Source of the DNA: Lutibacter maritimus
GTDB taxonomy: Bacteria > Bacteroidota > Bacteroidia > Flavobacteriales > Flavobacteriaceae
Reading direction: 5' to 3'
Length of the DNA stretch: 64,000 nt
NCBI RefSeq assembly: GCF_900116115.1
Contig: NZ_FOZP01000008.1
Location: 7,501-71,500 of the forward strand
Positions 30,240 to 35,263 of the stretch are shown one piece after another. The notes under the pieces were generated by a model that saw only the letters and a program-made list of their open reading frames with translations, had not been told where the DNA came from and ran no database searches. Made by a program: the position numbers and the translations under genes. Positions within the stretch are counted from its first letter, which is position 1, and each line of letters opens with the position of its first letter.

Positions 30240-30875
30240 ATGGAAAAGTTTGATATTGAAAATTGGATTAGAAAACCACAATTTGATTTCTTTAAAACTT
30301 ACGAAGATCCTTTTTTTAACATTACATCAACTATTGAAGTAACCAATTTATACAATTATTGTAAAAAACATAATTTATCATTTTCATTAGCGTGTATTTA
30401 TGTAGCAATTAAATGTATTAATGAAATTCAAGAATTTAAATTACGTATTTTTAATGATGAAATTTATTTATTTAATACTGTTGAAATTGGCTCAACAATA
30501 TTAAATGATGACAATACATTTTCATTCTGTTATTTTAAAAATAAATCGTCCATATTTGAGTTTAATACTCAAGGAAAAGAAGTAATTGAAAACCATAAAA
30601 AAGGAAATGTTTTTGAACCAAAAGAAGATTTGTTAGCAATAATACATTGTTCAACAATACCTTGGATATCTTTTACAGGAATTAAAAATGCCAGAAAAGG
30701 AGATGAAGCTAAACATGGAATTCCTAAAATAATATTTGGCAAAGTATTTGAAGAAAATAATATAAAAAAAATTCCATTTTCGGTTGAAGCACATCACGCC
30801 TTGTTGGATGGTTTTCATGTAGCTTTACTATTTAAAAAAATGCAGAATTTTATAAATAAATTAAGTGAAATTTAA
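30240..30875 (+). CDS. Chloramphenicol acetyltransferase-like (CAT type A fold)
   Basis: 211 residues, the size of classical trimeric CAT. Seen: HHALLDGFHV, which holds the catalytic His186 and structural Asp190 of HHxxxDG, and PWISFTG, which holds the oxyanion-hole serine (Ser144). It starts 1 base after the rluD-like stop and is followed by yaaA after 15 bases, so it sits inside a housekeeping unit with matching composition, not in a resistance cassette. Whether it acetylates chloramphenicol is not known. Confidence 0.85.
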   Translation: MEKFDIENWIRKPQFDFFKTYEDPFFNITSTIEVTNLYNYCKKHNLSFSLACIYVAIKCINEIQEFKLRIFNDEIYLFNTVEIGSTILNDDNTFSFCYFKNKSSIFEFNTQGKEVIENHKKGNVFEPKEDLLAIIHCSTIPWISFTGIKNARKGDEAKHGIPKIIFGKVFEENNIKKIPFSVEAHHALLDGFHVALLFKKMQNFINKLSEI

Positions 30876-31970: not shown

Positions 31971-33368
31971 ATGAATACAAAATATATTGATTTAATAAAT
32001 CAAACATTCGATTTTCCTCAAGAAGAATTTAAAATAGATTCCAATAAAAACCTACATTTTCATGATATTGATACCATGAAATTAGCTGAAGAATTTGGAA
32101 CGCCTTTAAAATTTACATACTTACCAAAAATTAGTCAAAATATTCAAAATGCTAAATCAATGTTCGAAAGAGCAATGAAAAAGCATAAATTTAAGGCTAA
32201 ATATCATTATTGTTATTGTACAAAAAGTTCCCACTTTAAACATGTTTTAGATGAAGCTTTAAAAAATGATATTCATATTGAAACGTCATCAGCTTTTGAT
32301 ATTGATATTGTTGAAAATTTGAAAAGGGAAGGAAGTATTACAGACAAAACTTTTGTATTATGTAATGGCTTTAAAAGAGAAGAATATATTTCAAAAATTC
32401 AAAATTTAATTAATAATGGGCATAAAAATTGTATTCCTATTATAGATAATTATGAAGAAATTGGTTTATTAACAGAAGGTGTTAAGAAAAAAATTAATAT
32501 TGGAATAAGAATTGCTTCTGAAGAAGAACCAAAATTTGAATTTTACACATCTCGACTTGGAATTGGATATAAAAATATTGTAGATTTTTACAGACGAGAA
32601 GTTAAAGAAAACAACAAAGTGAACTTAAAAATGTTACATTTCTTTATCAATACAGGTATAAAAGACAATGCCTATTATTGGAATGAGTTAAGTAAGTGTA
32701 TGAAAGTTTACATAAGTTTAAAACGTATTTGTCCATCATTAGACAGTTTAAATATTGGTGGAGGATTTCCAATTAAAAACTCATTAGGCTTTAATTACGA
32801 TTATGAATATATGGTTGATGAAATCATCTGTCAAATTAAAGATGCTTGTGAAGATGCTGAAGTACAAGTTCCACATATTTTTACCGAATTTGGTAGTTAC
32901 ACCGTAGGTGAAAGTGGCGGAGCAATATACAAAGTATTATACCAAAAGAAACAAAATGATAGAGAGCGATGGAATATGATTAATTCATCGTTTATTACAA
33001 CATTACCAGATAGTTGGGCTATAAATAAACGATTTATTTTATTACCTTTAAATCGTTGGAACGATGTTTATGAAAGAGTTTTATTAGGAGGTTTAACCTG
33101 TGATAGTGATGATTATTACAACTCCGAACAACATATAAACGCCATTTATTTACCAGCATACAAAGAAGAAAAACCATTATATTTAGGTTTTTTCAATACT
33201 GGTGCATATCAAGAATCAATAGGTGGTTATGGAGGGCTACAGCACTGTTTAATTCCACAACCAAAACACGTGATAATATCAAAGAATAACGAAGGAAAAT
33301 TAGAATATAAAGTATTTAAAGAAAAACAAACAGCAAGCGACTTTTTAAAGATATTAGGTTATGAATAA
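31971..33368 (+). CDS. speA: Arginine decarboxylase, Bacteroidota type
   Basis: PLP enzyme of the alanine-racemase fold (group IV) that converts arginine to agmatine; 465 residues, shorter than the proteobacterial enzyme. Seen: YCTKSSHF with the PLP lysine (Lys85), IETSSAFDIDIV, IGGGFPIKNS (phosphate loop), FTEFGSYTVGESG, and GLTCDSDDYYN with the second active-site Cys and Asp. The active site therefore looks intact. The last 8 bases overlap the next gene, so translation is coupled. Confidence 0.92.
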   Translation: MNTKYIDLINQTFDFPQEEFKIDSNKNLHFHDIDTMKLAEEFGTPLKFTYLPKISQNIQNAKSMFERAMKKHKFKAKYHYCYCTKSSHFKHVLDEALKNDIHIETSSAFDIDIVENLKREGSITDKTFVLCNGFKREEYISKIQNLINNGHKNCIPIIDNYEEIGLLTEGVKKKINIGIRIASEEEPKFEFYTSRLGIGYKNIVDFYRREVKENNKVNLKMLHFFINTGIKDNAYYWNELSKCMKVYISLKRICPSLDSLNIGGGFPIKNSLGFNYDYEYMVDEIICQIKDACEDAEVQVPHIFTEFGSYTVGESGGAIYKVLYQKKQNDRERWNMINSSFITTLPDSWAINKRFILLPLNRWNDVYERVLLGGLTCDSDDYYNSEQHINAIYLPAYKEEKPLYLGFFNTGAYQESIGGYGGLQHCLIPQPKHVIISKNNEGKLEYKVFKEKQTASDFLKILGYE

Positions 33369-34296
33369 AAGAACTTACGCAGGAATACCTGAAAAATATG
33401 CGAAATTAGATACATCTAAAGTTGTATTAATTCCTGTTCCTTTTGATGGAACAATTAATTGGCAAAAAGGAGCCGTTAATGGTCCAAAAGCTTTTTTAGA
33501 TGCATCAGAAAATATGGAATTGTATGACATAGAAACTGATTCTGAAGTATATAAAAATGGAATATTTTTAGCAGACGACGTAATTGAAACTGCTTCAGCC
33601 GAAAAAATGGTTAGATCAGTACATGCTACAACAAAAGAATACATCAGAAAAAATAAATTTGTAACATTAGTTGGAGGAGAACATTCTATATCGATAGGCT
33701 CAATTAGAGCTTTTAATGAATGTTTTGATAATTTAACGGTAGTTCATGTTGGAGCGCATGCGAATGTTAGAACAGAGTTTGAAGGTACGCAATACCATAA
33801 TGCTTGTGCACTTTCAGATGCAAGTCAATCAACAAATTTAATTCAAATTGGTATTCGTAGTATGGATACTATTGAAAAAACAATTGTTGATGAAGATAAA
33901 ACATTTTATGCACATGAAATGGTTACCGATGACTATTGGATGGAAAATGCTATTGATTTAATGACAAACAATGTTTTCTTATCATTCAATTTAAACGCAT
34001 TAGATATGTCATTAGTAAGATCTACTAGTTACCCAGAACCTGGCGGATTATTTTGGTATGAAACACTAGAATTTCTTCAAAAATTATTTAAAGAAAAAAA
34101 TGTTGTTGGTATAGATTTAACAGATCTTTGTCCAAACGACAACGATAAAGCTTCAAATTATTTAGCTTCAAAACTTTACTACAAAATGTTAAGTTATAAG
34201 TTTGATAATGCTGATGAAGATGATTATGAAAACGAAAGTGGTTTTTCGGAGCCAAATAATAAAACATCAAAATTCCAAGACGAAGATTATGAGTAA
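33361..34296 (+). CDS. Agmatinase-family protein with replaced metal ligands (probable pseudoenzyme)
   Basis: 311 residues with the full ureohydrolase fold and no frameshift: LIPVPFDGT, GGEHSISIG, LIQIGIRSMD, YPEPGGLFWYE and LCPND are all present. Of the six manganese ligands, His108 (GGEHS) and His133 remain. The family motif DAHAD reads GAHAN (Gly131, Asn135) and FDxDxLDP reads FNLNALDM (Asn210, Asn212). A catalytic Glu position near the C-terminus reads Asp255. The C-terminus has an acidic extension. Agmatine hydrolysis is therefore unlikely. It overlaps speA and the next gene by 8 bases each. A regulatory or scaffold role is inference. Confidence 0.85.
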   Translation: MNKRTYAGIPEKYAKLDTSKVVLIPVPFDGTINWQKGAVNGPKAFLDASENMELYDIETDSEVYKNGIFLADDVIETASAEKMVRSVHATTKEYIRKNKFVTLVGGEHSISIGSIRAFNECFDNLTVVHVGAHANVRTEFEGTQYHNACALSDASQSTNLIQIGIRSMDTIEKTIVDEDKTFYAHEMVTDDYWMENAIDLMTNNVFLSFNLNALDMSLVRSTSYPEPGGLFWYETLEFLQKLFKEKNVVGIDLTDLCPNDNDKASNYLASKLYYKMLSYKFDNADEDDYENESGFSEPNNKTSKFQDEDYE

Positions 34297-35263
34297 AAAA
34301 GGAGCAATTTCCCAATTTATTGAAAAGTATTATTTACATTTTAACTCAGCAACAGTTGTTGATGCAGCTAAAGAATATGAAAACCAATTAGCACAAGGTA
34401 AAAAAATGTTGGTTTCATTAGCTGGAGCTATGAGTACTGCCGAGTTAGGAAAAATATTTGCGGAAATTATTAGACAGGATAAAGTTCAAATTATATCTTG
34501 TACAGGAGCAAATCTTGAAGAAGATATCATGAATTTGGTTGCACATTCTCACTACAAAAGAGTACCAAATTATAGAGATTTAACTCCAAAAGAAGAGTGG
34601 GATTTATTAGAAAAAGGTTTAAATAGAGTTACAGATACTTGTATTCCAGAAGAAGAAGCTTTTAGACGTTTACAAGAGCATATTTACAAAATTTGGAAAG
34701 ATGCTGAAGAAAAAGGAGAACGTTATTTTCCACATGAATTTATGTACAAATTATTGTTATCTGGAGTTTTAGATCAATACCATGAAATTGATCCTAAAAA
34801 CAGTTGGATGATTGCTGCTGCTGAAGCCAATTTACCAATGGTTGTTCCAGGATGGGAAGATAGTACTATGGGTAATATTTTTGCTTCATACGTATTAAAA
34901 GGTGAGTTGAAAGCGAGTACTATGAAATCTGGAATTGAATATATGACATTTTTAGCTGATTGGTATACTGCAAATTCTAAAGAAGGAATTGGATTTTTTC
35001 AAATAGGAGGAGGTATTGCAGGTGATTTTCCAATTTGCGTTGTGCCAATGTTGTATCAAGATATGGAACGTACGGATACTCCATTTTGGAGTTATTTTTG
35101 TCAAATATCAGATTCAACAACAAGTTACGGTTCCTATTCAGGAGCTGTTCCAAATGAAAAAATAACTTGGGGTAAATTAGATATTGATACCCCAAAATAT
35201 ATTATTGAAAGTGATGCAACCATTGTTGCGCCATTAATTTTCGCCTATTTATTAAATATGTAA
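34289..35263 (+). CDS. Deoxyhypusine-synthase-like protein
   Basis: 324 residues from ATG 34289, which overlaps the upstream stop by 8 bases; longer upstream frames run through the neighbour and are rejected. Seen: SLAGAMSTAELGK, IISCTGANLEEDIMNL, GGGIAGDFPI, and WGKLDID, whose lysine (Lys296) matches the active lysine of eukaryotic deoxyhypusine synthase. Bacteria have no eIF5A, so a polyamine role is likely; homospermidine-synthase-like aminobutyl transfer is known for some members. Its substrate here is open because the preceding agmatinase looks inactive. Confidence 0.88.
   Translation: MSKKGAISQFIEKYYLHFNSATVVDAAKEYENQLAQGKKMLVSLAGAMSTAELGKIFAEIIRQDKVQIISCTGANLEEDIMNLVAHSHYKRVPNYRDLTPKEEWDLLEKGLNRVTDTCIPEEEAFRRLQEHIYKIWKDAEEKGERYFPHEFMYKLLLSGVLDQYHEIDPKNSWMIAAAEANLPMVVPGWEDSTMGNIFASYVLKGELKASTMKSGIEYMTFLADWYTANSKEGIGFFQIGGGIAGDFPICVVPMLYQDMERTDTPFWSYFCQISDSTTSYGSYSGAVPNEKITWGKLDIDTPKYIIESDATIVAPLIFAYLLNM

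Follow-up and report, generated by a model that had tools for sequence, protein, structure and literature searches.

A predicted metal-less agmatinase homologue retained in the polyamine operon of Lutibacter maritimus and recurring in Flavobacteriaceae

The agmatinase (SpeB) homologue encoded in a polyamine operon of Lutibacter maritimus lacks all four Asp ligands of its metal site and, judged from its sequence, is a metal-less protein that lost its catalytic set and has since been under strong purifying selection. Damage of this kind appears to have arisen five to seven times among the Flavobacteriaceae genomes compared here, in genomes that also encode AguA. We propose that the AguA-AguB pair displaced SpeB from catalysis and that SpeB was retained, most likely as a protein partner within the operon; for this explanation as a whole we estimate a probability of roughly 0.5. 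Ligand loss, recurrence, association with AguA and purifying selection are all sequence-based.

The window, i.e., the whole 64,000-nt stretch of DNA that was analysed, carries the operon as three overlapping genes. The expectation that the operon is intact around a full-length SpeB-like frame, which overlaps each neighbour by 8 bases, proved correct. The features discussed below are:

31971..33368, + strand: SpeA-like arginine decarboxylase, 465 aa (PF02784, 55.5 bits), with an 8-base overlap with the SpeB-like frame
33361..34296, + strand: SpeB-like, predicted metal-less agmatinase homologue, 311 aa (PF00491, 161.6 bits; TIGR01230, 180.5 bits vs a cut-off of 174.3), ligand set HGHNNN
33682..33684, + strand: H108, the metal-ligand His that is kept within GGEHS
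33751..33765, + strand: GAHAN, residues 131-135, with the ligand replacements D131G and D135N and with H133 kept
33799..33801, + strand: N147 at the position of the guanidinium-contact His (H in 23/23 intact Lutibacter copies)
33988..33996, + strand: N210-L-N212, both Asp ligands replaced by Asn
34030..34032, + strand: Y224 instead of the conserved Thr of STGTPEPGG, a position altered in 7/8 damaged lineages
34123..34125, + strand: D255 instead of the conserved active-site Glu
34289..35263, + strand: deoxyhypusine-synthase (DHS)-like protein, 324 aa (PF01916, 145 bits), whose ATG gives it an 8-base overlap with the end of SpeB

The SpeB-like frame spans 311 codons from ATG to TAA, and both profiles place its product among the agmatinases and ureohydrolases. 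According to the available excerpts of PMC8049259, the metal ligands of E. coli SpeB are H126, H151, D149, D153, D230 and D232, whereas H163, T244 and E274 are the proposed contacts of the guanidinium group. We paired these residues with those of the window protein by motif (GGEHS 105-109, GAHAN 131-135, YHNACA 145-150 and SFNLNALDM 208-216). The set of two His and four Asp ligands is incomplete in the window SpeB, with D131G, D135N, D210N and D212N, and the guanidinium-contact His, Thr and Glu are absent as well (H147N, T224Y, E255D). All 23 intact Lutibacter copies and 6/6 outgroup copies carry the unreplaced residues at these seven positions. The original prediction, made from this single sequence, was thus right that four of six ligands are replaced and that Asp255 occupies an active-site Glu position. 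It also named GGEHS correctly as kept but counted one remaining His besides it, where both His ligands (H108 and H133) are still present; the predicted swap of the His-Asn pair at residues 146-147 was confirmed, but no other member of the clade has it, as the two related genomes (G021 and G014, see below) read N-N. An AlphaFold model of the protein retains the ureohydrolase fold (pLDDT 84, pTM 0.86, TM 0.80/0.85 to 3pzl), and the residues lost make it likely that agmatinase activity was lost with them.

Two further Lutibacter genomes, G021 (94%) and G014 (82%), carry the same four Asp replacements as the window SpeB, and among the three genomes codons 131, 135, 210 and 212 differ only synonymously. 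Because they are common to three genomes, these replacements are more than chance; sequencing error was rejected since three assemblies agree. No internal stop was present in SpeB of any of the three. Codon maximum likelihood (ML), a purpose-written GY94 branch model fitted to 10 Lutibacter taxa, gave SpeB omega values of 0.036 for the background and 0.020 inside the damaged clade, all SpeB omega values being rough because dS is near saturation. Forcing omega = 1 cost 2dlnL 512 inside the damaged clade and 77 on the branch of a further damaged copy, G020. Omega on the stem of the clade was ~1 and poorly determined, with 2dlnL 4.6 as the cost of setting the stem equal to the background. Inside the window's clade, SpeA and DHS had omega values of 0.013 and 0.010. 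Pairwise estimates pointed the same way, with omega at 0.001-0.046 in seven pairs of damaged copies (omega = 1 cost 2dlnL 209-334), at 0.023-0.046 in damaged pairs from two further clades, and at 0.004-0.056 in seven intact pairs. The raw counts between the window genome (G000) and G021, with 67 silent and 19 amino-acid differences over 311 codons, agree with a low omega. By this codon evidence, the window SpeB is under strong purifying selection after the apparent loss of its metal site. A simple pseudogene was rejected by codon ML, the frame being unbroken and omega far from 1. The earlier argument against simple decay, made from the frame alone, is therefore borne out by the alignment with close relatives, which share the replacements and have omega values as low as intact relatives.

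An operon SpeB is present in 29/38 Lutibacter genomes; this number includes one copy (G042) that is split over two contigs with its motifs intact. Two genomes, G007 and G012 (both 99% complete), contain no SpeA, DHS or SpeB orthologue. Of the operon-bearing genomes, 13/29 encode AguA at no less than 351 bits. Damaged SpeB copies occur in 5/13 AguA-positive vs 0/16 AguA-negative operon-bearing genomes (Fisher p 0.011), with the ligand sets HGHNNN (the window genome, G021 and G014), HGHNDA (G020) and HDHNDD (G050). K40N, D131G and D135N occur in the window's clade and also in G020. That the change recurs, here and across the family, is beyond what the earlier reading of a single sequence could see.

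The window genome (3.48 Mb, 20 contigs) encodes AguA (PF04371, 362 bits), directly preceded by a gene for a CN-hydrolase (PF00795, 199 bits) with AguB as its best NCBIfam match. The same aguB-aguA adjacency is found in 5/5 damaged-SpeB Lutibacter genomes, with the motifs LPELY, KxHxP, CWDQW and HCxS, which we take to be catalytic. Both proteins pass Pfam and fall short of the NCBIfam equivalog cut-offs (AguA 244 vs 382; AguB 333 vs 410). Because of this adjacent pair, the step from agmatine to putrescine is not missing from the genome, and the claim that the pathway is broken at agmatinase does not hold; 14 other family genomes, in which SpeA lies beside DHS without SpeB between them and AguA is present, likewise speak against it. 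The search for the AguA/AguB route was thus successful, and the parallel search for another ureohydrolase gave a single further PF00491 match, which lacks the ligand residues, so that a takeover by such an enzyme was rejected. This second protein (386 aa; G000:C11 ~173620-174780, L163 2121-3281, - strand) lies outside the window, reads GGSQD, DNKFD and IDLSAV at the motifs, and is flanked by genes that are presumably topA-like and gldK-like. Weaker and longer PF00491 matches, mostly of 386-429 aa, exist in most Lutibacter genomes; their ligand state was read in the window genome. A carboxynorspermidine route was also rejected: the best TIGR01047 match in the window genome reached 51 bits vs a cut-off of 409, and no nspC-type decarboxylase there passed its cut-off.

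To follow SpeB through the family, PF00491 was searched on 397 genomes, and 29 genomes with a low best score were chosen and searched for SpeB orthologues. Matches were obtained in 14/29: nine damaged copies, one intact copy (G310), one copy with a broken frame (G112) and three weak, paralogue-like ones. Only after the nine damaged copies had been found was AguA searched on the 397 genomes, with PF04371 E < 1e-80 defining AguA-positive; 54/397 were positive, including the window genome. All nine damaged copies, which lie outside Lutibacter, fell into AguA-positive genomes (9/9), in a sample that was itself AguA-rich (12/29). DHS was found in 45/53 other AguA-positive and in 25/27 AguA-negative genomes. 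Among 46 AguA-positive operons beyond the Lutibacter census, with the DHS-less genome G231 added, SpeB was intact in 22, damaged in 10 and absent in 14; it was intact in 25/25 of the AguA-negative controls with DHS. These 27 controls were hand-picked and 17/25 of those read were previously known as strong SpeB-type matches, so that both the 25/25 and the Fisher values from pooled data make the contrast look stronger than it is. This bias affects neither the census within Lutibacter (5/13 vs 0/16) nor the nine copies found blind. Eight AguA-positive genomes lack DHS, of which G231 was read; G112 was left out of the counts and G310, being too distant, out of the conserved-position counts. Outside Lutibacter the status of the route refers to the AguA search alone, AguB having been searched within Lutibacter. 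Since intact SpeB is retained in 30/59 AguA-positive operons, AguA does not force its loss. Side cases were G112 (L263), which is AguA-negative and has a SpeB with intact motif pieces and a broken reading frame, and G231 (L262), which has SpeA and a damaged SpeB and no DHS match in the genome.

In a tree of SpeA plus DHS, the genomes with damaged or absent SpeB form 14 clades. Six of these hold damaged copies, which together with the DHS-less G231 makes seven losses. The large SpeB tree joins G020 to the window's clade (0.85) and G184/G372 to the G161/G122 group (0.89), giving five losses; a nucleotide SpeB tree places G020 elsewhere (75). On these trees, SpeB damage would have arisen five to seven times.

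The changes in the damaged copies are concentrated at particular positions. We defined 136 SpeB positions as conserved (at least 97% in 69 intact copies), of which 14 were altered in at least 4/8 damaged lineages, where 1.2 were expected and the maximum in 2000 shuffles was 6. Most often hit were D135 (8 lineages), H147 (7), T224 (7), P216 (6), D212 (5) and T222 (5). With the lineages merged to five, 17 positions were altered in at least 3/5 vs 5.9 expected (maximum 12), and the strictest five-lineage rule left four positions vs 0.5 expected (maximum 4). On the other side, 69/136 conserved positions, including H133, are unaltered in all 15 damaged copies; H108 is kept in 14/15. The replacements differ among lineages, being N, R, Q, P, E, S, Y or K at H147 and Y, F, K, R, N, H, A, S or L at T224. 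Both operon neighbours are still present in 14/15 damaged-SpeB operons. Taken at sequence level, the damaged SpeB is thus a protein whose catalytic centre is lost and much of whose scaffold is kept. The most diverged copy, that of G231, may be decaying.

At conserved positions, neither SpeA nor DHS has any change common to the window's clade. For SpeA there were no such changes in 6/8 damaged lineages, one in G020 and seven in G231, and for DHS none in five damaged lineages, 18 in G161/G358 and 15 in G122/G166/G185/G373. With mostly no changes across the damaged lineages, a shared change in either neighbour was rejected. The DHS-like genes of G122, G166, G185, G277, G358, G161 and G373 (L229-L235) form a group of their own with ~15-18 replacements at otherwise conserved positions, and the DHS of the SpeB-less G277 is likewise altered within this range. 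The window's SpeA-like frame scored 175 bits with the NCBIfam biosynthetic arginine decarboxylase (ADC) model, under its cut-off of 369. The DHS-like protein belongs to the DHS family and keeps, by alignment, the lysine of the WGK motif, for which PMC10981699, as excerpted, describes a catalytic role. It is probably a homospermidine synthase, while passing neither the homospermidine (112.9 of 450) nor the caldomycin (89.5 of 500) equivalog of NCBIfam. With the flavobacterial DHS-like protein below these cut-offs, putrescine and agmatine are both candidate substrates. Two genes upstream of SpeA, at 30240-30875 of the window, lies a gene for a protein of the chloramphenicol-acetyltransferase family (PF00302, 102.6 bits).

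We propose that the ancestral operon would have led from arginine to agmatine (SpeA), putrescine (SpeB) and homospermidine (DHS-like protein). In the lineage of the window, as on repeated occasions in other Flavobacteriaceae, agmatine could also have been converted to putrescine by AguA and AguB, and because this pair would make the same product, the chemistry of SpeB would have become dispensable. SpeB would then have been either deleted or retained as a metal-less pseudoenzyme; we infer this order, with displacement coming before deletion or retention. In the window's lineage it would have been retained while replacements removed the metal site and the guanidinium contacts, with purifying selection subsequently acting on the new sequence. 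That AguAB displaced the catalysis and SpeB stayed on as a pseudoenzyme we regard as very probable.

Loss of the metal site under such strong selection suggests a second, non-enzymatic job of SpeB. A protein-protein role as scaffold, stabiliser or activator of SpeA or, less likely, of DHS, probably present already in the intact SpeB, would fit best, because the pocket diverges lineage by lineage while a large part of the protein stays conserved, and because both neighbours persist in 14/15 operons. That the retained SpeB acts as such a partner in the operon has, in our estimate, slightly less than an even chance of being right. The case for DHS as an indispensable partner suffers from G231, where SpeA and a damaged SpeB occur without a DHS match; this gene set may point to SpeA over DHS. 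As SpeB was deleted in 14 AguA-positive genomes, the second role would be dispensable in some lineages. We further advance, tentatively and as the more speculative idea, that flavobacterial SpeB has always had two functions, one as agmatinase and one, without catalysis, as a subunit or activator within the polyamine machinery, SpeA being the likeliest target. In genomes with AguAB the catalysis would have been removed and, in several lineages, the second function left bare. The polyamine 'prozymes' of trypanosomatids would be a parallel to such a bare second function of an operon-encoded SpeB.

Other explanations have to be weighed against this partner role. Even with the binuclear metal site gone, a remodelled pocket might bind or convert a different metabolite. 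New catalysis or ligand sensing of this kind would be in line with a stem on which change may have come in a burst before purifying selection set in, with the kept H133 and H108, and with the K40N, D131G and D135N found in both the window's clade and G020. However, the lineage-specific replacements at H147 and T224 leave no common new pocket, and ligand sensing in particular becomes less likely because the guanidinium-contact residues have also been lost; we consider this explanation unlikely.

The product of the operon might instead have switched. In Thermus, CdmS turns agmatine into caldomycin, from which a SpeB-type ureohydrolase then produces homospermidine (PMC10981699, in excerpt), and a DHS-like enzyme that couples agmatine in the same way would let the operon end in a guanidino-polyamine such as caldomycin. 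According to the same excerpt, two Asp present in human DHS are missing from CdmS, and alignment to other DHS relatives places Asn and Tyr there in the window protein. Yet AguAB can supply putrescine in 5/5 damaged Lutibacter genomes, DHS has no change common to the window's clade at conserved positions, and its NCBIfam scores, both under the cut-offs, come closer for homospermidine (113 of 450) than for caldomycin (90 of 500). The switch also gives no reason for keeping SpeB. An agmatine-derived product is not needed to explain the data and seems improbable to us.

Decay is the next possibility: SpeB, redundant after AguAB, would persist as a frame by chance or through translational coupling to DHS. 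Its start and stop do overlap the neighbours, one to four Asp ligands are gone in different lineages as if in stages, and no SpeB is left between SpeA and DHS in 14 AguA-positive genomes. But coupling guards a frame and not its amino acids, the changes cluster at active-site positions while 69/136 conserved positions remain intact in all 15 damaged copies, and the low omega after the loss, with other damaged pairs in the same direction, makes a decaying pseudogene quite improbable. That the window SpeB forms a heteromer with a paralogue that is an active ureohydrolase, as in metformin hydrolase, where MetCb lacks five of six ligands and is required by MetCa (PMC11271267, in excerpt), is hardly credible although the window SpeB model matches metformin hydrolase chains, since the sole other PF00491 match in the window genome is also without ligand residues and G231 has a damaged SpeB and a single PF00491 match.

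Metal-less pseudoenzymes of the arginase fold are already known; what is new here is a flavobacterial operon agmatinase in an unusually clean evolutionary setting, and our search of the open-licence PMC literature found no report of a metal-less agmatinase in Flavobacteriaceae. The window protein shares fold, length and operon place with agmatinase SpeB (TIGR01230; PMC8049259, in excerpt) and differs from it in four of six ligands, in the guanidinium-contact His and Thr and in having Asp for Glu. MetCb of MetCaCb, as far as described in the available text of PMC11271267, is likewise a bacterial ureohydrolase fold without a metal site that is kept as a protein partner, the role we infer for the window SpeB; it pairs with an active paralogue, whereas none was found for the window SpeB, apparently a former operon enzyme and not a duplicate. 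In Fusobacterium nucleatum, ornithine decarboxylase is fused to an arginase/agmatinase domain in which Ser and Asn replace two Asp ligands and which was considered probably inactive (PMC8503589, in excerpt). This domain is similarly ligand-poor and tied to a polyamine decarboxylase, but as a fused domain and with an AAT-fold enzyme, whereas the window SpeB has a gene of its own next to a SpeA of the PF02784 type. The Trypanosoma brucei arginase-like protein, which lacks the manganese cluster (Hai et al. 2015, cited in the excerpted PMC8503589), is also a metal-less arginase fold that was kept, but in a eukaryote and without operon context. In the ADC-SpeY clusters of SAR11, ADC and the DHS-like SpeY are accompanied by an arginase/agmatinase homologue in Pelagibacter and by AIH plus NCPAH in Fonsibacter; this alternation resembles that of SpeB and AguAB, and the available part of PMC9992855 describes no metal-less agmatinase.

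As the window SpeB passes TIGR01230, annotation pipelines with that model would call it an agmatinase and assign the wrong polyamine step. For the family, these operons would represent natural repeats, in which an unrelated route seemingly displaced one enzyme several times, the enzyme afterwards either being deleted or surviving with its active site lost. The surviving, damaged copies would reveal which residues selection still requires, so that a second role concealed in a textbook enzyme becomes testable.
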